This document shows, piece by piece, positions 11,616 to 22,011 of a stretch of DNA of 50,094 nucleotides. Made by a program: the position numbers and the translations under genes. The DNA lies in the NCBI GenBank assembly GCA_913048115.1, contig CAJWVI010000002.1, positions 1 through 50,094 on the forward strand. The letters run 5' to 3'. Source of the DNA: an uncultured Flavobacteriaceae bacterium. GTDB lineage: Bacteria; Bacteroidota; Bacteroidia; Flavobacteriales; Flavobacteriaceae. Each line of letters opens with the position of its first letter. Position 1 is the stretch's first letter. The notes beneath the pieces were generated by a model, which made no database searches, had not been told where the DNA came from, and was given only the letters and a program-made list of their open reading frames with translations.

Positions 11616-11897
11616 CTACTCTTTGTCCTCTACAGGAGCGGCAGCTGGTTTTTTGAATTTTGCATATTTGTTTTTGAACTTGTCAATACGTCCTGCAGTA
11701 TCAATCAATTTAGATTTTCCTGTGTAGAATGGGTGAGATGTTCTTGAGATCTCCATTTTTACCACTGGATACTCAACACCATCAACTTCAAGCGTTTCTT
11801 TTGTGTTTGCAGTAGACTTTGTTAAAAACACATCATCGTTTGACATATCTTTAAATGCTACTAATCTATAACTTTCCGGGTGGATACCTTTTTTCAT
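11616..11897 (-). CDS. rpmE2: 50S ribosomal protein L31, type B
   Basis: A 93-residue large-subunit ribosomal protein. It starts [20 protein letters not shown] and contains the L31 motif [28 protein letters not shown]. The CxxC zinc pairs of type A L31 are absent, so this is the zinc-independent type B paralogue, the usual form in Flavobacteriia. The C-terminal tail is Lys/Ala/Pro/Glu rich. It has its own promoter, a leader hairpin and a terminator. Confidence 0.97.
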
Positions 11898-11922
11898 CTT
11901 AAATCTCTTTAGTAAATTGTAA

Positions 11923-11940
11923 TTCCTGACCTTTCAGGAA
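11923..11940 (-). promoter_or_regulatory. Hairpin in the rpmE2 leader
   Basis: TTCCTGA (11923-11929) and TCAGGAA (11934-11940) form a perfect 7-bp stem with a 4-nt loop. It sits just inside the 5' end of the predicted rpmE2 transcript. It could stabilise the leader or bind a regulator such as L31; this is inference. Confidence 0.4.
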
Positions 11941-11949
11941 ATGCGTTTG

Positions 11950-11978
11950 CAAAAATAAATATATTTAGATAATCTGCA
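11950..11978 (-). promoter_or_regulatory. rpmE2 promoter
   Basis: The minus strand has TTG (11978-11976), 18 bp, then TATTTTTG (11957-11950), matching both Bacteroidota promoter elements. The predicted leader is about 50 nt. Confidence 0.65.
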
Positions 11979-12211
11979 ATGACTTTTTGTGTTTTTTTTG
12001 AATGATTTTAACTTGTGCTTTTTTGCTTAAGAAATTATTCCCCATACTCCCTTAGTATTGATTTCTTTAAGCTTATTTTAATACAACTGCAGCAGTTATT
12101 TAATAAATATTATTTCAAAAAACATATTGCTTTTTACTGCTTTATGATTGCCCATGATTAAGACCGTTGTTTGCATCTATATATTAATCTTAAAACGCAA
12201 TCCTAGACAAA

Positions 12212-13315
12212 ATGGATTGCCTACTTTTGCCAAAATTTAAAGACCCCATGATTAGCCCTCAAGAAATAAACAAACCAGAACCTATTGCTGTTGATAAAAA
12301 ACTAACACCCTTTAATCAAAAAATAGAGGTATTCCCTACCATCAAAGCACTAGAGCAAGGAAAAATGATACTTATCAATGAGCTTTATGGTGATGGTCTA
12401 AGCCTACTTCTAGAAATACATAAATACCTAAGAAAGAAAATACGCAACACTACTTTTAAAGAACAACATGACTATCGTACAGCGTATCGTAAGCTTTCAA
12501 ATAATATTGTTATAGAAATAGTCTCTCAAAAAATAACATTAAAAAAAGCACCTAGTATTGGTTGGCTAGAAGAGTTTTACCCAGAAAACAATCACTTTTT
12601 ACTCACATTGCCTCAAATACAGGGCCTTAATAGTGCATGGCAATGGTACAAAAATGGTATTTCTATACCGGTACTACGCAACAAAATACATCCATATTAT
12701 GGAACCTACTTCCCTACTCGTTTTGAACATTTAACCCTTTTTGATACTTGGCTTAAACACTACAAAGGGTCAAAAAAAACAGCCATAGACGTTGGGGTTG
12801 GTTGTGGTGTATTGTCTTTACAAATGGTACAGCATGGTTTTCAAAAGGTTTTTGCAACAGACATAAACCCAAATGCTATTGCTGGACTAACAAAATCGAT
12901 GGGCACCACAAAACTCTCTAGAAAGATTGATCTAAATTTAGGCAACCTCTTTGGCACCTTTGAAAAACAAACCGAATTAATTGTCTTTAATCCACCCTGG
13001 CTACCACAACCTCATGAGCTGGGCAGCATTGACCAAGCTATATACTACACAGACTCTTTGTTCCTTGACTTTTTTACAGAAGCTAAAAAAAGACTAGCCC
13101 CAGACGGAAAATTAGTTCTTATTTTCTCTAACCTTGCACAAATAACAAATGTAGCAAAGCAGCACCCTATAGAAATGGAGCTAGCCCAAGGAAATAGATA
13201 CCAATTAGAAAAAAAATACACAAAGTCTGTAAAACCCTCTTCTAGCAAAACAAAAAGAGATCAACATTGGCGGGCTCTAGAAACCGTAGAACTATGGGTA
13301 TTAAAACATTGTTAA
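12212..13315 (+). CDS. Class I SAM-dependent methyltransferase with NPPW motif
   Basis: A 367-residue protein. The SAM-binding domain is in the C-terminal half: TAIDVGVGCGVLSLQM is motif I, VFATDINPNAIAGL motif II and LIVFNPPWLPQP motif IV. NPP-aromatic is the signature of methyltransferases acting on planar or amide nitrogens (PrmC/HemK, RsmC and related types). The N-terminal half (about 20-190) is a separate domain not recognised. An alternative start is ATG 12248 (MISPQEINK). The substrate could be a protein glutamine, a nucleic-acid base or a small molecule. It is monocistronic and shares a bidirectional terminator with the convergent four-gene operon. Confidence 0.82.
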   Translation: MDCLLLPKFKDPMISPQEINKPEPIAVDKKLTPFNQKIEVFPTIKALEQGKMILINELYGDGLSLLLEIHKYLRKKIRNTTFKEQHDYRTAYRKLSNNIVIEIVSQKITLKKAPSIGWLEEFYPENNHFLLTLPQIQGLNSAWQWYKNGISIPVLRNKIHPYYGTYFPTRFEHLTLFDTWLKHYKGSKKTAIDVGVGCGVLSLQMVQHGFQKVFATDINPNAIAGLTKSMGTTKLSRKIDLNLGNLFGTFEKQTELIVFNPPWLPQPHELGSIDQAIYYTDSLFLDFFTEAKKRLAPDGKLVLIFSNLAQITNVAKQHPIEMELAQGNRYQLEKKYTKSVKPSSSKTKRDQHWRALETVELWVLKHC

Positions 13316-13485
13316 GGAGTTATTTAAAATAGTGTTGCCTTTCCTTGTTAAAGCTCATCAAACTAATTACCACTAAAATTAATTTATCTTCTTGACTCAA
13401 AACCTCTTGTTAAGCATCTTTACATAAAAAATAGTAATCATCAGAATATAAAGTTTTATACAAGAAAACTTTCAGTAATTATCAT

Positions 13486-13519
13486 AAAAAAAACCTTACA
13501 GACTTGTAAGGTTTTTTTT
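13486..13519. terminator. Bidirectional terminator between the methyltransferase gene and the four-gene operon
   Basis: Eight A, CCTTACA, a GACT loop, TGTAAGG and eight T. The perfect stem with tracts on both sides can end transcription from both convergent units. It lies 26 bp beyond the last stop of the four-gene operon. Confidence 0.85.
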
Positions 13520-13544
13520 GTCAATATGCTGGTTTTAATATAAC

Positions 13545-14663
13545 CTAATACCACCCTCTAATATTATAAACAGTTTTTGGTTGGTTTTTAGCCGCAGCAA
13601 CACCAATTTCTCTTGCAGCGCTGATTGCTGATTTTTTAAGCTCAAAACCTTGATTTTCGTCATAACTCTGGGCTCTATCGTATTTTTCATATGCCAAATC
13701 CCAATCTCTTTTATCGTCGGCATCAAGTTTCCCTGAAATACTAGCAAATAATTGCTTTGCTTGAATAGCACATTTTGAATCAGCAGAAACTTCTGAAAGA
13801 TACGAAGAAGCTAGTTTTGCGTCTCTATTAGCCCAAGCTCCTTGTGCTTTACCCATAGACTCTGCACATCTGTGACCTTCTATTTCAGTAAGAAGTTTTT
13901 GAGCTGCATCAAAGCATGAAACTTCTGGGAGTATTGAAACTAAATAAGAAGCAGATTCATCCCATTGATTATTAGTTTTTGCTACAGTGGCCTTTTGAAT
14001 ATTTTCTGCACACTCATTCTCTTGCTTCATCTTGAACACCTCCAGTGTTAAACCCTGGCAAGCCATATAACAGTCTTTACACACCTCAGGAACAGACAAT
14101 AAATCAGCCAAGGCTTTATCATATTCTTTTCTTTGTGCTTTACCAATGGCCTCTTTTTTAATGAAATCACACTTATCATTGTAATATTCCATTATTTTAG
14201 TTTTTCCATTAGCTATAAAGGCTTTAAACATAGGGTTTCTGGTCTTTATTTGTTTAAGAGCAGAAATATATGCCTTGGTGTCGCTGTTACCAACTCCTTT
14301 GACTGTCATCGTTTCTGATGCAAACAGAATACCTTCTATTCCATCACCAATATAGAAGTTAACCTCTAGAGTTAAGGCAACTTTTCTTGGAGGGCCAGGA
14401 AGTACTTCTTGAAACAAAACAGAGATGTTTGGAGTTATAATAAACCTAGAGTTTGTAGTTCCACCCAAACCATTCATTGTTACAATTTTATTCAGTTTGT
14501 TTTTCAACAAATTCATTGCAGCACTTGGTAGTCCATCTATTTGCTCTGAAACAAATGTAGAAAGTTGAATTCGTGCTGAATCGTCAGTCTTGCCTGCAGT
14601 GTTCTGACCCAAAGAAATGGAAACACAAAACAAAAACACGAAAGTTTTTAATAAATATTTCAT
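13545..14663 (-). CDS. Exported protein with three Cys-paired helical repeats; last gene of the four-gene envelope operon
   Basis: A 372-residue protein, function unknown. The signal peptide is about 1-19 (ends SLGQ). The N-terminal domain (about 28-160) is alpha/beta, with QLSTFVSEQIDGLPSAAMNLL, NSRFIITPNISVL and VALTLEVNFYIGDG followed by SDTKAYISALKQI; the arrangement recalls small periplasmic domains of CsgG/FlgT-type proteins. Then come three TPR-like repeats of about 40-50 residues, each with cysteines 30-32 residues apart: C165-C195, C218-C250, C266-C298. These could be disulfide-stapled helical hairpins. The C-terminus is lysine and tyrosine rich and ends in RGWY. It starts 11 bp after the preceding gene's stop. 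Confidence 0.78.
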   Translation of the reverse strand: MKYLLKTFVFLFCVSISLGQNTAGKTDDSARIQLSTFVSEQIDGLPSAAMNLLKNKLNKIVTMNGLGGTTNSRFIITPNISVLFQEVLPGPPRKVALTLEVNFYIGDGIEGILFASETMTVKGVGNSDTKAYISALKQIKTRNPMFKAFIANGKTKIMEYYNDKCDFIKKEAIGKAQRKEYDKALADLLSVPEVCKDCYMACQGLTLEVFKMKQENECAENIQKATVAKTNNQWDESASYLVSILPEVSCFDAAQKLLTEIEGHRCAESMGKAQGAWANRDAKLASSYLSEVSADSKCAIQAKQLFASISGKLDADDKRDWDLAYEKYDRAQSYDENQGFELKKSAISAAREIGVAAAKNQPKTVYNIRGWY

Positions 14664-14674
14664 CTTTTATAATA

Positions 14675-15640
14675 TTATTTAGAACCTAAATAAAGTTTTA
14701 CCTCACCTAGACCCACAGTTGTTAATTTGTTTTCAATCCCCATACCTTTTAGATACTTGCTTAAATCTTTAGCCCAAGTTCTAGCATCAAGACCTCTTAC
14801 TCTTCCTTTCTTTTCGTAGGTCATTGGAATTCTAACTTGTTCAAAATTCATCATTGTAGCTTCTGCATCCATTGTTGTGTATGATCCACCCACAGTGTTA
14901 TCATACATCCATTCTTCAATTAAGAATCCCAACTCATCATCCCCAAAATCTTCAGATTCTAAATCATAATCCCAATCATCCCAGACTCGTATTCCAATAG
15001 CACACTCTCTACCCTTCTCAAACCAACGTTCAAATGCGGTTTGAAGCTCCGATAAGAATTTATCAATATGTGAAGCAACTGCTTCCTCTAACAATACAGG
15101 TAGAGGACTAAAGCCGTCGGGAGCTCCTGTGCCAGAAGCCTGTGCTATTTGTTTACCAGTATAAGAATCTAATGCTTTTAAAATAAAAGTAACTGATTTT
15201 TCACCCATTGGAGTGGTATTTAGTGTCCATCCCAATTTTAAGATTATGTCAGCTTTAGCAACTTTCTTAAGCGCATCAATTGGAGACTCTGCAACTTGCG
15301 CACCTCCATACTTTGATGATCTCATAGCTTCTTCAGCAGCTGCGCTTTCAATTTTATCTAGCTGACTTTTAAGATTTTTGGCATCAAAATCTCTTTGACT
15401 CAACATACCATTGATCTGGGTAATAACTAAATCTAAATCTGTATCACGCTGCAATGCAACCCTGTATGAAGGAATGTCTTTTACAACACCTTGGTTATTG
15501 TATGATTCAGAATAATTGTTTTCAAAACACCAATTATCTGCAGGAACGACCATTAAAGTTGGTTTTTTTGCTTGAGAAAATGATATGCTAACAAAAAGCA
15601 ATAAAACTATTAGATATAATTTATGTATTTGATTTTTCAT
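14675..15640 (-). CDS. DUF6175-like exported protein with CsgG-like pattern; third gene of the operon
   Basis: A 321-residue protein with a signal peptide (1-24, ending SFSQA). It resembles the Bacteroidota DUF6175 family by recall, opening with KKPTLMVVPADNWCFENNY. The segment KVAKADIILKLGWTL followed by VTFILKALDSYTGKQIAQ has the beta-alpha layout and the typical phrase 'xxD-TGxxxA' of CsgG/FlgO/TolB-N-like periplasmic domains; that similarity is my inference. It also has a helical part (about 60-105) and a strongly acidic stretch (about 220-240, WDDWDYDLESEDFGDDEL). The function is unknown. It starts 12 bp after the preceding gene's stop and is followed after 11 bp by the Cys-repeat protein. 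Confidence 0.78.
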   Translation of the reverse strand: MKNQIHKLYLIVLLLFVSISFSQAKKPTLMVVPADNWCFENNYSESYNNQGVVKDIPSYRVALQRDTDLDLVITQINGMLSQRDFDAKNLKSQLDKIESAAAEEAMRSSKYGGAQVAESPIDALKKVAKADIILKLGWTLNTTPMGEKSVTFILKALDSYTGKQIAQASGTGAPDGFSPLPVLLEEAVASHIDKFLSELQTAFERWFEKGRECAIGIRVWDDWDYDLESEDFGDDELGFLIEEWMYDNTVGGSYTTMDAEATMMNFEQVRIPMTYEKKGRVRGLDARTWAKDLSKYLKGMGIENKLTTVGLGEVKLYLGSK

Positions 15641-15652
15641 TATCGTTTATTT

Positions 15653-16180
15653 TTAGAAACCACTGCTAAGTGACTTGATTATATTTTCTTTTTCTAAAGT
15701 TTTTCTTAGAAGATCAATATTAACTGTAACTAAAGTACCAATTCTATACTTTCTCTTTCCAAGTTTCTGGCGATCTGTCACATCCTTTACAACATTGACA
15801 TACTTAGCGAAACTATTTAAATCTTTCTTGCTAACACTATTAAAAAACTGCATAAAAAAATCTTTAAATTCAGCTTCTAAACCAGAAGATCTAGCTAGTG
15901 CAGGTTTTGACTTACATTTTCTTCCTTGAGCATTTACTCCTTGAAAAATAACTGCATGGACAGCATTTTTTGAGGCTTGAACCCTTGCAAGCCTCTCATC
16001 AGTTAATATAGAATAAACTTTTAGAGTGTATACTCCAGCAGCAGCTTCTCCCATACATTCTATATCATAATTCCATTTAGCCGTTTCAAGGTCTGCTTTC
16101 CTTTTTTTTCTTTTAGATTGTGCGTCTACAGAACCTATTGAGAAAAACAATATTCCAATAAAAATTAATAACTTTTTCAT
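15653..16180 (-). CDS. Small exported protein, LPP20/FlgP-like pattern; second gene of the operon
   Basis: A 175-residue protein with a signal peptide (1-20, ending VDAQ) followed by a very basic linker (SKRKKRKADLE). The body has TLKVYSILTDERLARVQASKNAV, then a long middle with FKDFFMQFFNSVSKKDLNSF, and ends YRIGTLVTVNIDLLRKTLEKENII. A strand, a helix of the AxxxA type and a closing strand are the layout of LPP20/FlgP-like domains; this is a weak resemblance, not a proven family. There is no lipobox cysteine at the signal cleavage site. Only 2 bp separate it from the preceding gene, so translation is probably coupled. Confidence 0.75.
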   Translation of the reverse strand: MKKLLIFIGILFFSIGSVDAQSKRKKRKADLETAKWNYDIECMGEAAAGVYTLKVYSILTDERLARVQASKNAVHAVIFQGVNAQGRKCKSKPALARSSGLEAEFKDFFMQFFNSVSKKDLNSFAKYVNVVKDVTDRQKLGKRKYRIGTLVTVNIDLLRKTLEKENIIKSLSSGF

Positions 16181-16182
16181 AT

Positions 16183-17493
16183 TTATTTTTTTTGCATAAT
16201 TAACATTCCTGAACTTAACTTCTTAGCCTTCCCTTTAAAGAGAGTCATATTAAAATCTTGCGGAGTATCATCTCCAGCTCCAAAACGATTATCCCAAATT
16301 TGTTTTTTATCAACTTTGATAGTTGCGATTTTTTTATAACCAATCATTTCATATGTTTCTGGATCTGCGATAGCTTCAAGAACTTCAAAACTTTCTCCAC
16401 CTTCTAGACCTTCTTTCATTCCAATCTGGGCATAAATTTTACCATCTTCAATTATAATTGGAGATTTTGGTTTAAAAATATCGTATTTTTTTTGAAGTTT
16501 CGCATAAACTTTATCTAGATTTCTTATTGTTGACAACTCAATAATTTGCTGTTCTGATCTTTTCTCTTTCAGAGAAAAGGTAACAAGACTAGTTGCTTTT
16601 TCTTCACCTATAAATTCAAAATCAACCGCTAAAGTAGAAAAATCTACTGCATCACCTTGGTTTTTTTTCTTACCCATGAGGTTGCCAAGGGCTAAAAAAG
16701 ACTCTTGGGTCCAGTCTAGTCTATATAGCCACGCAGTAGTCCAAACAGAATAACCCTCTCTTGTCTTTGTGTATGTTTTTTCAGATAACTTCAATGCCAT
16801 ATCTCTAGGAAGTCCTGATAGTTCATTTGCGGCTGCATCCGAAACAGCTTTTACTGCTAAAGCAACAGCTTCGTTTGATACAAAATTTAATTTCGTAAAA
16901 ACAACAAATGTGTTTTTTATTAAAAATTTACCTGTGTTTTTTAAGTCAGTTACACCTCGTACTGTTGTAGCAGCAACTGCTTTATCTTGCTCACTAGCGC
17001 TATATGCTCCTCTCTCACCAATAAGTGTAAGTGGATTATAATTTTCTTGGTCAAACTGGTCTAGAGCAAACCATTTGTTAACCATTTCAAAAGGTATTTT
17101 TTTTGTAGCTATAAATTTATCTATTTCATATTTAACTTGTGAGTTGTCAGCTATTATTCCAGCTGTAGCATCACTTGCTGCTCCACTAATTAATTTTCCA
17201 GCACCACTTTTTTTGATACCTAGCCGTTCTATTTCTTCATCTGTTAACCTAAAATCAGATAAGCTAAGAGAATTCAAATCAATTCTGTGATCATTATATT
17301 TATCAGGGAATGGCCAAGTTTGATATGCATTAGAAACAATATCAGAATTATCGAAAGCATCTCCAACAACCAATACATTATGGAGTGAACTTCTTTGATA
17401 TGACTGTACTTCTTCTTTGATTTTTTGCGCGGAAACCACTTGAATAGCTAATAATAAAATTAGCGATACAATGGTGTTTGTTTTGTTTTTCAT
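16183..17493 (-). CDS. Exported protein with FlgT-C-like end; first gene of the four-gene operon
   Basis: A 436-residue protein, function unknown. The signal peptide is about 1-22 (ends VVSAQ). An early motif is YQRSSLHNVLVVGDAFDN, then TWPFPDKYNDHRID. The middle (about 80-330) is helical and Ala/Lys rich with a CsgG-like alternation (FLIKNTFVVFTKLNFVSNE). The last about 100 residues contain DGKIYAQIGMKEGLEGGESFEVLE then GYKKIATIKV, like the SH3-like FlgT C-terminal domain (a 'G-x-Y/V-I-x-x-G-x-x-x-G-L/V-x-x-G-D/E' pattern). It is the leader gene, with 2 bp to the next. The upstream region has a perfect 14-bp palindrome (17562-17575). Confidence 0.75.
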   Translation of the reverse strand: MKNKTNTIVSLILLLAIQVVSAQKIKEEVQSYQRSSLHNVLVVGDAFDNSDIVSNAYQTWPFPDKYNDHRIDLNSLSLSDFRLTDEEIERLGIKKSGAGKLISGAASDATAGIIADNSQVKYEIDKFIATKKIPFEMVNKWFALDQFDQENYNPLTLIGERGAYSASEQDKAVAATTVRGVTDLKNTGKFLIKNTFVVFTKLNFVSNEAVALAVKAVSDAAANELSGLPRDMALKLSEKTYTKTREGYSVWTTAWLYRLDWTQESFLALGNLMGKKKNQGDAVDFSTLAVDFEFIGEEKATSLVTFSLKEKRSEQQIIELSTIRNLDKVYAKLQKKYDIFKPKSPIIIEDGKIYAQIGMKEGLEGGESFEVLEAIADPETYEMIGYKKIATIKVDKKQIWDNRFGAGDDTPQDFNMTLFKGKAKKLSSGMLIMQKK

Positions 17494-17561
17494 GATTTGT
17501 TTTGAATTAGTATTTAGTTTAATATTAATTATTTTTTACTTGACCTTAAAAAAAAATACAG

Positions 17562-17575
17562 GAAACTATAGTTTC
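17562..17575. promoter_or_regulatory. Perfect palindrome upstream of the four-gene operon
   Basis: GAAACTATAGTTTC is a perfect 14-bp palindrome, 69 bp upstream of the first ATG of the minus-strand operon. It may be an operator; the binding protein is unknown. Confidence 0.35.
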
Positions 17576-17756
17576 TTCTAAAAATAATAATGTGGAAATA
17601 TCTTAAATAAAAACGGACAAGATAGCCCATCTTTAGCCCAGATAATAAAATCTACCTAGCAGGAAATCTAATAGATATTTAGTGTTAGGATAACCAGGGT
17701 CACATTAAAAAATGTATTGTAAAACAAAAATTTAGCCTAAATAATAATTCTCACAA

Positions 17757-17778
17757 TATACTATGCATGCATAATATA
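17757..17778. promoter_or_regulatory. Candidate MarR operator
   Basis: A 22-bp palindrome with one mismatched pair, centred on ATGCATGCAT (17763-17772). It covers the expected -33 position of the marR promoter and ends 8 bp before its -7 box. This is the location expected for autorepression by MarR. Confidence 0.55.
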
Positions 17779-17785
17779 TTTAGAG

Positions 17786-17793
17786 TATCTTTG
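17786..17793 (+). promoter_or_regulatory. marR-fad operon -7 box
   Basis: TATCTTTG, a full match to TAnnTTTG, 30 nt upstream of the TTG start of marR. Confidence 0.6.
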
Positions 17794-17823
17794 ATTTTAA
17801 GTTAACCAAAGAATAAAGATTCA

Positions 17824-18273
17824 TTGAAAGAGAAGACGATAGATTATATACTAAGAGCCACATGGATGGCTGTTCAAAAAATGTATAATGAAAAAGCAGG
17901 TGCTAAAGGTAGTACCATGGCTACTGGTTTCGCACTCATAAGCATCGATCCAGAACAGGGCACTCCTTCTACTGCTTTAGGGCCTAAAATGGGCATCGAA
18001 GCAACTTCATTATCACGTACTTTAAAAAAAATGGAAGAACAGGGGCTTATACAGCGTCGGCCAAACCCAGAAGACGGCCGCGGGGTTTTAATACACTTAA
18101 CTCCTTTTGGAGTAGAAATGAGAGAATTCTCAAAGAGCGTTGTTTTTACCTTTGACGAGACTGTAAAAGAGCATATTTCTGAGGAAGAAATTAAAACATT
18201 CAAAAAAGTTGCTAGTACCATGATGGAACTCATCAACAACAAAAACATATACAAGAAAGTAATACATAATTAA
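17824..18273 (+). CDS. MarR family regulator of the beta-oxidation operon
   Basis: A 149-residue winged-helix regulator. A helix region (ATWMAVQKMYNEKA) is followed by the recognition helix SLSRTLKKMEEQGLIQRR and the wing, NPEDGRGVLIHLTPFG, typical of MarR (the D-x-R-G pattern is kept). The start is TTG at 17824; the next ATG (inside WMAVQ) would remove part of the dimerisation helix. It lies 5 bp before fadN, so it is the first gene of the operon. It probably represses the operon, with an acyl-CoA or fatty acid as a plausible ligand; a candidate operator sits in its promoter. The ligand is inferred from context only. Confidence 0.9.
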   Translation: MKEKTIDYILRATWMAVQKMYNEKAGAKGSTMATGFALISIDPEQGTPSTALGPKMGIEATSLSRTLKKMEEQGLIQRRPNPEDGRGVLIHLTPFGVEMREFSKSVVFTFDETVKEHISEEEIKTFKKVASTMMELINNKNIYKKVIHN

Positions 18274-18278
18274 ACAGT

Positions 18279-20687
18279 ATGTCTAAAAGAAGAATCAACA
18301 AAGTAGCCGTTGTAGGCTCAGGAATTATGGGAAGCGCTATCGCTTGCCATTTCGCAAACATTGGTGTAGAGGTCTTATTACTTGACATTGTACCCCGAGA
18401 ATTAACAGATACAGAAACAGCAAAAGGGCTCACTCTACAAAATAAAGTGGTGCGCAACCGCCTAGTAAACGATGCGCTTAAAGCATCGATAAAATCAAAG
18501 CCTGCTCCCTTATATAACACTGTTTTTGCAAAACGTATTTCAACTGGAAACCTAGAAGACGACATTACTAAAATAGGAAGTGTAGACTGGATTATTGAGG
18601 TAGTTGTAGAGCGTCTGGACATCAAACAGAAGGTGTTTGAAAACTTAGAAAAGCACAGAACACCTGGTACCTTAATTACATCAAACACTTCTGGTATTCC
18701 TATAGGGTTTATGAGTGAAGGACGTAGTGAAGATTTTCAGAAACATTTCTGCGGGACTCATTTTTTCAACCCGCCCCGATACTTAAAGTTGTTTGAAATA
18801 ATTCCTGGACCAAAGACAGATCCAGAAGTACTTGATTTCTTTAATAGCTATGGAGAACAGTTTTTAGGAAAAACCACCGTTATAGCAAAAGACACTCCAG
18901 CATTTATTGGAAACCGTATTGGAATCTTTTCAATCATGAGTTTATTCCATACCGTTAAAGAGATGGGATTAACAATTGAAGAGGTTGATAAACTATCTGG
19001 CCCCGTGATTGGTCGCCCAAAATCGGCAACCTTTAGAACTGTAGATTTGGTAGGTCTTGATACCTTAGTACATGTTGCTAACGGTATTAGAGAAAACTGC
19101 CCCACCGATGAGCGCTTGGCCTTATTCCAATTGCCAGATTTCATAGGCACCATGATGGAGAACAAATGGCTAGGAAGTAAAACCGGGCAAGGTTTTTATA
19201 AAAAAACAAAAAACGGGGAAGGTAAAACCGAAATATTAAGTCTAGACTTAAATTCGCTTGAATACAGAGCTCCACAAAAAGCTAAATTTGCTACACTAGA
19301 GCTTACCAAGTCCATAGATAATGTAACAGATCGTTTTACAGTGCTTGTAAATGGTAAAGACAAAGCAGGAACCTTTTATAGAAAAACATTGGCATCCTTA
19401 TTTGCATACGTAAGTAACCGTATTCCAGAAATATCAGATGAGCTTTACAAGATTGATGATGCCATGAAGGCTGGTTTTGGCTGGCAACATGGCCCATTCC
19501 AGATTTGGGACGCTATTGGTGTACAGGCTGGTATTAAAATCATGAAAGCCGAAGGACAACAACCTGCTCCTTGGGTTACTGAAATGATAGCTACTGGAAG
19601 TACTTCCTTTTACACTGTAAAACAAGGCGCTACTTATTTCTATGATATTCCTTCTAAAACACAAACCAAAGTCCCTGGACAAGATTCTTTTATCATACTA
19701 GACAATATTAGAGAATCTAGCGCAGTGTTTAAAAACAGTGGTGTTGTTATAGAAGACTTGGGTGATGGAATCTTAAACTGTGAGTTTAGATCAAAAATGA
19801 ATAGCATTGGCGGTGATGTTCTAGCTGGCATCAATAAAGCCATAGACCTAGCAGAAAAAGATTTTGACGGCTTAGTACTTGGTAACCAAGGAGCAAATTT
19901 CTCTGTAGGGGCTAATATTGGTATGATTTTTATGATGGCTGCAGAGCAAGAATATGACGAGCTAAATGCAGCTATTAGATATTTCCAAGATACGGTTATG
20001 CGTTTGCGCTACTGCTCTATTCCAACGGTAATGGCCCCTCATGGTATGACCCTGGGTGGTGGTTGTGAATTAACCTTGCACGCAGATCGTGTTGTTGCAG
20101 CTGCAGAGAGTTATATTGGACTGGTTGAGTTTGGTGTTGGAGTAATACCTGGCGGAGGTGGTTCTAAAGAAATGGCATTACGCGCTAGTGATATGTTCCA
20201 AAAGGGAGATGTTGAACTTAATGTATTGCAGGAGCATTTCTTAACCATTGGTATGGCAAAGGTATCTACCTCAGCACATGAGGCTTATGATTTAGACATT
20301 CTTAAACCAGGTAAAGACATCGTTGTTGTAAATACAGCTAGACAAATCGCTACAGCCAAAGCTGTAGCGAGGCAAATGGCAGATATGGGGTATACCAAGC
20401 CTGCAACTAGAAACGATGTGAAAGTCTTAGGAAAGCAAGCATTAGGCATGTTCCTGGCTGGAACAGACGCCATGAATGCTAGTCAATATATAAGTGAGCA
20501 TGATCAAAAAATCGCTAACAAACTAGCCTATGTAATGGCAGGTGGTGATTTAAGTGAACCCACCTTAGTAAGTGAGCAATATCTTTTAGACCTAGAGCGG
20601 GAAGCTTTCCTTAGTTTAACTGGAGAACGCAAAACCTTAGAACGTTTACAACACATGATTCAAAAAGGAAAACCGTTGAGAAATTAA
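18279..20687 (+). CDS. fadN: 3-hydroxyacyl-CoA dehydrogenase/enoyl-CoA hydratase fusion (FadN type)
   Basis: Bifunctional enzyme for the hydration and second oxidation step of fatty-acid beta-oxidation. In the 802-residue protein the dehydrogenase comes first (NAD motif VVGSGIMGSAIACHF at about 10-25, THFFNPPRYLKLFEIIPG in the middle and the C-terminal HAD repeat around 310-450) and the crotonase domain second (ANFSVGANIG, then HGMTLGGGCELTLHADRV and GVGVIPGGGGSKEMALR). This domain order is that of B. subtilis FadN, opposite to E. coli FadB. It is 5 bp after marR and 133 bp before the thiolase gene. Confidence 0.94.
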   Translation: MSKRRINKVAVVGSGIMGSAIACHFANIGVEVLLLDIVPRELTDTETAKGLTLQNKVVRNRLVNDALKASIKSKPAPLYNTVFAKRISTGNLEDDITKIGSVDWIIEVVVERLDIKQKVFENLEKHRTPGTLITSNTSGIPIGFMSEGRSEDFQKHFCGTHFFNPPRYLKLFEIIPGPKTDPEVLDFFNSYGEQFLGKTTVIAKDTPAFIGNRIGIFSIMSLFHTVKEMGLTIEEVDKLSGPVIGRPKSATFRTVDLVGLDTLVHVANGIRENCPTDERLALFQLPDFIGTMMENKWLGSKTGQGFYKKTKNGEGKTEILSLDLNSLEYRAPQKAKFATLELTKSIDNVTDRFTVLVNGKDKAGTFYRKTLASLFAYVSNRIPEISDELYKIDDAMKAGFGWQHGPFQIWDAIGVQAGIKIMKAEGQQPAPWVTEMIATGSTSFYTVKQGATYFYDIPSKTQTKVPGQDSFIILDNIRESSAVFKNSGVVIEDLGDGILNCEFRSKMNSIGGDVLAGINKAIDLAEKDFDGLVLGNQGANFSVGANIGMIFMMAAEQEYDELNAAIRYFQDTVMRLRYCSIPTVMAPHGMTLGGGCELTLHADRVVAAAESYIGLVEFGVGVIPGGGGSKEMALRASDMFQKGDVELNVLQEHFLTIGMAKVSTSAHEAYDLDILKPGKDIVVVNTARQIATAKAVARQMADMGYTKPATRNDVKVLGKQALGMFLAGTDAMNASQYISEHDQKIANKLAYVMAGGDLSEPTLVSEQYLLDLEREAFLSLTGERKTLERLQHMIQKGKPLRN

Positions 20688-20820
20688 TACCATTTTAATA
20701 TCCTGGACTCAGCCCTAATGATGGTTAAGCAGATGTTACTTTAAATAATTATTTAGCTAATAAAGCAAACACCTAACCAATACTCATAAAGTAGAGACTC
20801 CAAACAAATATAAATTTGAC

Positions 20821-22011
20821 ATGAAAACAGCATACATAGTAAAGGCATACCGCACCGCAGTTGGAAAAGCTCCAAAAGGAGTGTTCCGCTTTAAAAGAAC
20901 AGATGAATTGGCCGCAGAGACCATTAAATATATGATGGAAAAACTGCCAGAATTAGACCCAAAACGTATCGATGACGTTATTGTAGGTAACGCAATGCCA
21001 GAGGGTGCACAAGGTCTTAACATGGCACGTCTTATTTCTTTGATGGGCTTAGACATTGTGGATGTTCCTGGAGTAACTGTAAACCGTTTTTGTTCTAGTG
21101 GTATTGAAACTATTGGAATGGCAGTTGCAAAAATACAGTCTGGAATGGGCGATTGTATAATAGCAGGAGGAGCAGAATCAATGAGCAGTGTTCCAATGAC
21201 AGGTTTTAAACCTGAGCTAAATTATGATGTAGTACAATCTGGTCATGAAGACTATTACTGGGGCATGGGAAATACGGCAGAAGCTGTGGCCAAAGAGTTT
21301 AAAGTCTCTCGTGAAGATCAAGATGCCTTTGCATATCACTCTCACATGAAGGCATTAAAAGCACAGGCAGAAAATCGTTTTCAAGATCAAATAGTCCCTA
21401 TTACTGTAGATCAAACATTTATCAATCAAGCCGGTAAAAAAGAAACAAAAAGCTACATAGTTCATAAAGATGAAGGCCCAAGAGAAGGTACTAGTAAAGA
21501 AGCTTTAGCAAAACTCAGGGCTGTATTTGCCGCAGGAGGTAGTGTTACGGCTGGTAACTCATCACAAATGAGTGATGGTGCAGCCTTTGTAATGGTGATG
21601 AGTGAAGAAATGGTGAAAGAACTAAACCTTGAACCAATTGCAAGAATGGTAAACTATGCTGCTGCAGGAGTTGAACCGCGCATTATGGGAATTGGCCCTG
21701 TAAAAGCTATCCCAAAGGCATTGAAACAAGCTGGTTTAAAACAAGAAGACATTAAGCTTATTGAACTAAATGAAGCCTTTGCCTCACAATCTCTAGCAGT
21801 AGTAAGAGCATTAGACTTAAATCCAGATATTATAAACGTAAATGGTGGTGCTATTGCACTAGGGCACCCACTTGGATGTACAGGAGCTAAGCTGTCGGTA
21901 CAACTATTTGATGAGATGAGAAAGCGAGATATGGCGGGTGAGTATGGCATGGTAACAATGTGTGTAGGAACCGGTCAAGGTGCTGCTGGAATTTTTGAAT
22001 TTTTAAAATAA
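20821..22011 (+). CDS. fadA: Acetyl-CoA C-acyltransferase (3-ketoacyl-CoA thiolase)
   Basis: Releases acetyl-CoA from 3-ketoacyl-CoA, the last step of beta-oxidation. The 396-residue protein has the thiolase triad: Cys91 in NRFCSSG (nucleophile), His349 in GHPLGCTGAK and Cys381 in CVGTGQG, with NEAFASQS preceding. The length is standard. It lies between fadN and fadE. The 133-bp gap before it is the longest in the operon; a TAAATTTG sequence at 20811-20818 abuts the ATG but is too close to serve as a normal promoter. Confidence 0.95.
   Translation: MKTAYIVKAYRTAVGKAPKGVFRFKRTDELAAETIKYMMEKLPELDPKRIDDVIVGNAMPEGAQGLNMARLISLMGLDIVDVPGVTVNRFCSSGIETIGMAVAKIQSGMGDCIIAGGAESMSSVPMTGFKPELNYDVVQSGHEDYYWGMGNTAEAVAKEFKVSREDQDAFAYHSHMKALKAQAENRFQDQIVPITVDQTFINQAGKKETKSYIVHKDEGPREGTSKEALAKLRAVFAAGGSVTAGNSSQMSDGAAFVMVMSEEMVKELNLEPIARMVNYAAAGVEPRIMGIGPVKAIPKALKQAGLKQEDIKLIELNEAFASQSLAVVRALDLNPDIINVNGGAIALGHPLGCTGAKLSVQLFDEMRKRDMAGEYGMVTMCVGTGQGAAGIFEFLK

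Follow-up and report, generated by a model that had tools for sequence, protein, structure and literature searches.

A conserved four-gene module of exported proteins in Bacteroidota, a candidate for an outer-membrane-associated collar outside the flagellum

The operon at positions 13545–17493 of the stretch studied here (the window, 50,094 nucleotides of contig CAJWVI010000002.1 from an uncultured Flavobacteriaceae bacterium, assembly GCA_913048115.1) raises the question of what four exported proteins with possible likeness to flagellar outer-ring proteins would do in an organism with no flagellar genes in view. A first-pass annotation had proposed an envelope assembly similar to that of FlgO, FlgP and FlgT. 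The four genes, termed A to D, form a conserved module, A-B-C-D. A and C carry a predicted CsgG-type alpha/beta core, and in A the predicted core is followed by an SH3-like barrel, in the domain order of FlgT. By analogy with known systems, the chances appear about even that the module encodes an outer-membrane-associated periplasmic collar serving an envelope machine other than the flagellum. The genes are as follows.

16183–17493, minus strand: gene A, open reading frame (ORF) with ATG start, 436 amino acids (aa)
15653–16180, minus strand: gene B, ORF with ATG start, 175 aa, small exported protein
14675–15640, minus strand: gene C, ORF with ATG start, 321 aa, DUF6175 (PF19672)
13545–14663, minus strand: gene D, ORF with ATG start, 372 aa

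The operon is as tight as first described, with gaps of 2 (A/B), 12 (B/C) and 11 bp (C/D). Each of the four proteins begins with a signal-peptide-like stretch, as read from the sequence, and the export pattern (a hydrophobic run, then A/S/G/N/C-Q) fits most homologues: 49/58 A, 70/92 B, 53/55 C and 62/62 D sequences. A glutamine stands at the cleavage place, Q23 of C being invariant and Q23 of A and Q20 of D conserved in at least 90%. The A–D proteins mostly fit the Q-rule described for exported Bacteroidota proteins (PMC5837995, PMC10653852).

To define the module, genome contigs of 84,980 species, one genome per species, were scanned with the C alignment. At least 502 stretches encode a C relative, and the best 80 (C 49–95% identical) were kept as loci, in which the module genes were called with iterative profiles for each gene. 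Since all 80 loci were picked by C similarity, the counts measure linkage to C and not frequency. A and at least one B are found directly upstream of C in 75 of the 80 loci and D directly downstream in 78, with median intergenic gaps of 12–16 bp. The four genes are thus conserved together, and because the families appear in an unchanged order in most of the 80 other loci, the A–D reading frames are more than chance ORFs. The five upstream exceptions consist of L041, cut by a contig end, L109, without A or B within about 4 kb, and L038, L064 and L065, where A is upstream of C, but B is uncalled or an opposite-strand ORF breaks the run; L058 is counted among the 75 despite fragmented A and B genes. 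Titles of the carrier records name Flavobacteriaceae, Flavobacteriales, Chitinophagales, Saprospiraceae, Bacteroidales, Alistipes and Dysgonamonadaceae, and many are metagenome-assembled genomes (MAGs). In L072 and L085 the first operon is followed, downstream of D, by a further and divergent set, A-B-B, in which A has 589/591 aa.

The 704 non-module ORFs longer than 120 aa in these loci were clustered rather than annotated singly. The largest cluster, of ABC-ATPase type by look, has 22 members in 19 loci at scattered places. A DUF3575-type gene (one BLAST cluster) follows D, two genes after C, in 9 loci; 8/8 tested are over the DUF3575 cut-off and several show weak outer-membrane-barrel matches (L101, cut short, was left out). 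A small exported-looking gene occupies the same place upstream of A in 7 loci (e.g. L042:4962-5384).

Protein A has no Pfam or NCBIfam family, with sub-threshold Pfam matches at most. Its predicted architecture consists of a signal peptide, a CsgG/FlgT-M-like alpha/beta core with a helical insert (about 32–340) and an SH3-like, FlgT-C-like barrel (about 343–436). The AlphaFold2 model, made from a 43-sequence alignment, has a predicted local distance difference test score (pLDDT) of 81 and a predicted template modelling score (pTM) of 0.80. Among 350,542 PDB chains, the first Foldseek match of this model is 8z5n_0, an LPHT ring chain (E = 4.1e-5, prob 1.00), the second is FlgT, 3w1e (E = 2e-4, prob 0.99), and the third is TraT with E = 0.08. 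The 8z5n_0 chain is taken for FlgT; the entry title names no chain, but the chain has 352 residues and matches like 3w1e. In VIA the top match of A is CsgG (Z = 9.4, 165 residues, 5.2 Å), and FlgT gives Z = 8.3 over 230 residues, with A 32–436 aligned on FlgT 96–354. The model thus predicts a FlgT-M-like domain (CsgG/TolB-N type) followed by an SH3-like FlgT-C domain, but the placement of the domains differs (root-mean-square deviation, rmsd, 11 Å).

Profile comparisons support the barrel. FlgT, FlgO, FlgP and CsgG alignments from gammaproteobacterial genomes were compared with the module families by hhalign with signal peptides removed, and 49 neighbour families served as negatives. The FlgO and FlgP sets are BLAST clusters beside flgT, for which Pfam gives FlgO in 2/2 and LPP20 in 2/2 tested, one LPP20 match being below cut-off. 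The A barrel (close and hand-cut distant members) matches FlgT-C at 62.9% (negatives ≤0.8%), and full-length A scores 4.1% (negatives ≤1.5%) in the same place. The suggestion that A ends in a FlgT-C-like SH3 domain is therefore upheld by profile and by the first two Foldseek ranks. Pfam shows no FlgT_N in A with E values up to 1 allowed, and of the 28 families listed for 43 A members the first 25 do not include it. In the model the first strand of A, at 35–43, comes directly after the signal peptide, and the VIA alignment starts at FlgT residue 96, after the FlgT-N region.

Long N-terminal forms of A show a DUF2846 match in 3 of 7 tested, all below cut-off (L043, E = 1.6e-4; L059, E = 9.2e-7; L104, E = 8.1e-5). 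By eye only, A ends in a region resembling an outer-membrane barrel in L017, L020, L024, L072 and L085; the profile of the DUF3575-type gene gives no match to these regions.

Protein C is a full-length member of DUF6175 (E = 2.8e-102, 342.2 bits, cut-off 23, model positions 1–293). Its predicted architecture shows a CsgG/PelC/FlgT-M-like alpha/beta domain at about 20–210 and a second alpha/beta domain at about 211–318. The AlphaFold2 model (43-sequence alignment; pLDDT 86.9, pTM 0.77) gives Foldseek matches to GNA1162 (E = 3.8e-4), PelC (6.5e-4), CsgG (6.9e-4), the LPHT ring (8.3e-4) and FlgT (9.9e-4). VIA places CsgG first (Z = 10.5), followed by PelC (9.7), FlgT (9.0) and LptE (9.0). These matches concern the N-terminal domain, residues 211–318 being barely covered by the fold searches. 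The CsgG/FlgO-like strand pattern proposed earlier for C thus reappears as a CsgG-type fold in the predicted model.

As CsgG is the top VIA match of both A and C, a secretion channel is to be considered, in which A or C would form a CsgG-like outer-membrane pore for a specific substrate and B and D would gate or guide it. CsgG has a pair of extra transmembrane beta-hairpins; no such pair is seen in the secondary structure of the A and C models. Nor does a substrate-like gene hold a fixed place beyond 9 of the 80 loci, though no curli profile was run. A channel is judged quite improbable.

B and D have no Pfam or NCBIfam family, with sub-threshold Pfam matches at most. Two B copies are found in 31 loci (the two fragments of L058 included) and three copies in 2. 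By a simple pattern, the lipobox is displayed by the second copy in 24/31 two-B loci, by the first copy in 1/31 and by single B genes in 10/44. The first-pass annotation had likened B to LPP20/FlgP, which is not supported: with E values up to 1 allowed, B has no LPP20 (PF02169) match, LPP20 is missing from the first 25 entries in the 34-family list of its 69 homologues, and B scores 0.1% to the FlgP set. With signal peptides left in, B scored 52% and 74% to FlgT-N; after their removal the score was 3.3%, with negatives reaching 3.1%, so that a FlgT-N likeness of B is not claimed. Several of the early cross-matches between A, B, C and D also lie in the first 30 or so residues and represent signal peptides. 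The HTH_CodY matches, seen for 22 of the 69 B members with a best E of 0.0012, are scattered and weak, and were not used for function.

A single FlgT_N-bearing protein, L120 (genome G410), scores 34.8% to B. Its FlgT_N match (E = 2.2e-6) is followed, by eye, by a CsgG-like domain and a third domain, a layout like that of the B-C fusions described below; L120 is a possible bridge between FlgT and the A-B-C-D module.

In D, a predicted N-terminal alpha/beta region is followed by weak TPR-type matches and four conserved cysteines (165, 198, 218, 298). The region is weakly FlgT-M-like by hhalign (19.4%; negatives 4.4%), in keeping with the alpha/beta domain and cysteines first noted there. The ARM_TT21 matches, seen for 25 of the 51 D members with a best E of 1.6e-5, are weak and were likewise set aside. 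For the four window proteins together, there were no matches in PADLOC at E up to 0.1 (known defence models only), none in NCBIfam, and one in PHROGs at E = 0.084.

More distant carriers show B and C fused. In a family belonging to another class (f28), DUF6175 is found in 9/9 genomes, and the C proteins carry an N-terminal B-like domain; both the B profile (E = 7e-8 to 1.5e-4) and the C profile match 6/6 proteins tested. In the L020 fusion, the B region consists of residues 57–162 and DUF6175 of residues 171–376. Against a three-sequence fusion alignment (strict pattern), B scores 95.5% and C 92.8% by hhalign; FlgT, FlgO, FlgP and CsgG score 0.6% or less and L120 1.1%. A seventh distant protein, L024, gives no match to the B profile (E = 0.88). 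The gene next to the fusion has an LPP20 domain over cut-off in 2/2 tested (L018, E = 6.7e-6; L020, E = 1.2e-7), and distant-locus proteins of L018, L019, L020 and L024 show a D-like C-terminal part by profile (79–80%; negatives up to 9–11%). The fusion argues that B and C work together.

In four genomes (G154, G158, G307, G109) B-C-D is kept and the first gene is different or divergent. The first gene of G154 matches LpoB just under the cut-off (E = 1.9e-4, 21.8 bits, cut-off 22.3) and CsgG just over it (E = 2.2e-4, 21.0 bits, cut-off 20.8). The LpoB match, the first two Foldseek ranks of C (GNA1162 and PelC) and the LptE scores of up to Z = 9.0 all favour another explanation, that of an adaptor or regulator set: CsgG-fold proteins similar to PelC, LpoB and LptE that act as non-motor partners of polysaccharide, peptidoglycan or lipid export at the outer membrane. 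Among the clustered neighbours, however, non-module genes keep a fixed place in 9 of the 80 loci at most, and the 9-locus gene is the DUF3575-type gene. The adaptor explanation is regarded as unlikely, although less so than a channel.

The best Foldseek matches of A, the LPHT ring and FlgT, also raise the question whether the proteins are genuine components of a flagellar H-ring or what is left of a flagellum since lost. Flagellar absence was judged by one marker, FlhA (PF00771). By this single-marker test FlhA is not found in this genome (G000, 90% complete), which agrees with the earlier remark that no flagellar gene is present in the window. FlhA is absent in 15 of 17 DUF6175 genomes, this one included (two of the 15, G298 and G307, are less than 90% complete), and present in G109 and G243. 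The module genes are also intact and conserved. Flagellar components or a flagellar remnant are largely refuted by this survey and considered extremely unlikely.

A collar of the type IX secretion system (T9SS) or gliding apparatus is another candidate, as SprA is found in 16 of 17 DUF6175 genomes, the one miss (G307) being 80% complete. However, SprA is also found in 5/5 DUF6175-free genomes tested. In addition, DUF6175 is sparse, in 12 of 296 genomes of an even sample of the phylum and 5 of 59 relatives, and therefore cannot be a core T9SS part. A T9SS collar is accordingly very improbable. Given the FlhA counts and the presence of SprA in DUF6175-free genomes as well, the module is tied neither to flagella nor specifically to the T9SS.

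A collar-like assembly outside flagella offers the simplest mechanism for the module. A-B-C-D would be a self-contained cassette for an outer-membrane-associated periplasmic assembly of Bacteroidota. CsgG-fold subunits (A, C and probably D) would assemble laterally into a ring or collar beneath the outer membrane, by analogy with FlgT/FlgO/FlgP, CsgG and PelC. B-type subunits, with a lipobox in many loci, would tie the collar to the membrane, and the A barrel and, in some species, the N-terminal extensions would dock partners. The collar would then scaffold another, non-flagellar envelope machine. The lipobox on second B copies (24/31) and the DUF3575-type gene after D (9 loci) are counted for an outer-membrane link. 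A more specific form of the proposal, offered tentatively as a doubtful possibility, is a relative of the H-ring that does not depend on a flagellum: a heteromeric collar at the outer membrane, made of CsgG-fold subunits, carried as an exchangeable cassette in Bacteroidota and related classes and scaffolding an envelope machine. Of the envelope assembly first proposed, the co-conservation, the A barrel, the C fold and, weakly, the D likeness stand, and B as a FlgP relative does not.

Several points weigh against a collar. The Foldseek alignments of A with FlgT and the LPHT ring have template modelling (TM) scores of 0.17–0.24 and rmsd of 16–17 Å, and the VIA alignment with FlgT has the 11 Å rmsd given above. 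Near FlgT in VIA are LptE (Z = 8.3) and a Maf-type fold (Z = 6.9), F1-ATPase barrels match A 340–436 with Z = 7.7, and VIA warns that best Z values of 7–8 are typical of models without a clear match. The case for A therefore depends on three points taken together: the two leading Foldseek matches, the order of the domains and the profile of the barrel. A FlgT_C match is found in 1 of 43 A members, at E = 0.093. For C, LptE, TolB and others score Z = 7–9 in VIA, and its profile gives 14.1% to CsgG (negatives 4.1%) and 0.2% to FlgT. B is without a family assignment and the likeness of D appears weak, and PDB profile searches with the four alignments found no relative; matches to eL14 and a WD40-type design were judged chance. 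None of the neighbours keeps a set position in more than 9 of the 80 loci, so that a partner machine is not named; SprA is found both with and without DUF6175. We infer the complex, the ring, its location, its partner and its function.

The surroundings of the operon consist of ordinary genes. On one side are a convergent plus-strand methyltransferase gene (12212–13315), ribosomal protein L31 and a sugar nucleotidyltransferase, and on the other a MarR regulator and fatty-acid oxidation genes. At 17824–22011 the MarR regulator adjoins genes for 3-hydroxyacyl-CoA dehydrogenase and thiolase; the cluster is an ordinary one for fatty-acid oxidation. The congener G305 (L189) has the same neighbourhood without the operon (MarR, a methyltransferase in two ORFs, L31). 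In the congener G298 (L030) the operon is between the methyltransferase and L31; in the window (11616–18273 compared) it is between the methyltransferase and MarR, on the opposite side of the methyltransferase. Presence, absence and two positions among congeners indicate that the operon is acquired, lost or relocated as a whole. A repeat search of 13316–17823 found no long repeat bracketing it, and plasmid sequences gave no match to the module.

Two records lie outside the usual carriers. L190 (MT836698.1, 'Bacteriophage sp.'), an unannotated 9-kb human-faecal sequence, carries A, B, a 192-aa gene, B, C and D, and reads as bacterial DNA. L070 (DGPR01000040.1), a Cellvibrionales MAG contig, carries A-B-C-D with a C 53% identical to that of the window; its placement is possibly a binning contamination.

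A strong bidirectional terminator, as reported at first, closes the operon.

13486–13519, both strands: bidirectional hairpin terminator, 15-bp stem, 4-nucleotide loop, A/T-rich base

The hairpin is a perfect 15-bp inverted repeat with a folding energy of −15.6 kcal/mol (z = −4.8; 0 of 200 shuffles equally stable), and the A-runs and T-runs at its base make it usable as a terminator on both strands. It was not reported by a simple terminator scan. The Bacteroidota promoter motif is TTTG-N17-24-TAnnTTTG; the window has 3 copies, 90 of 100 shuffles have as many, and none is upstream of A.

The module brings together in one conserved unit four protein families, of which one is a DUF and three lack a Pfam or NCBIfam model, and A and C gain a predicted fold. 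It offers a direct test of FlgT/FlgO/FlgP-type collars outside flagella. If the collar reading is true, flagellar outer rings would be one case of a broader group of envelope collars that can be reused, which bears on the evolution and reuse of outer-membrane scaffolds of molecular machines. No title or abstract opening in the literature searched describes the A-B-C-D module; DUF6175 is absent from that literature, as is the combination of LPP20, CsgG and Bacteroidetes, and PMC12611786 has CsgG only within its reference list.

Among known systems, DUF6175, of which C is a full-length member, is listed by Pfam as a family of unknown function. CsgG shares with A (Z = 9.4) and C (Z = 10.5) the predicted core fold; it differs in that A–D of the window have no CsgG Pfam match, A has an extra barrel and C a second domain. 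PelC and GNA1162 are lipoproteins, and PelC has been solved as a dodecamer. They resemble the N-terminal domain of C (Foldseek E = 3.8e-4 to 7.4e-4, TM-score by target 0.45–0.56; PelC Z = 9.7), whereas C of the window has no lipobox, has a second domain and is adjacent or, in distant carriers, fused to B. In Vibrio-type flagellar motors the H-ring is formed by FlgT, described as periplasmic, with FlgO and FlgP, described as lipoproteins of the outer membrane. From this ring the module differs in the absence of FlhA in 15/17 genomes, in an A without FlgT-N whose match is loose (TM-scores 0.17–0.24), in B, C and D as separate families, and in that no FlgP-like protein is shown in this operon. 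In common with FlgT/FlgO/FlgP are exported proteins encoded together, lipobox-bearing members in many loci, and an A whose predicted CsgG/FlgT-M-like core precedes an SH3-like barrel, as in FlgT. The module may work like FlgT, but it is not FlgT, since it lacks FlgT-N and most of its carriers lack the flagellum.

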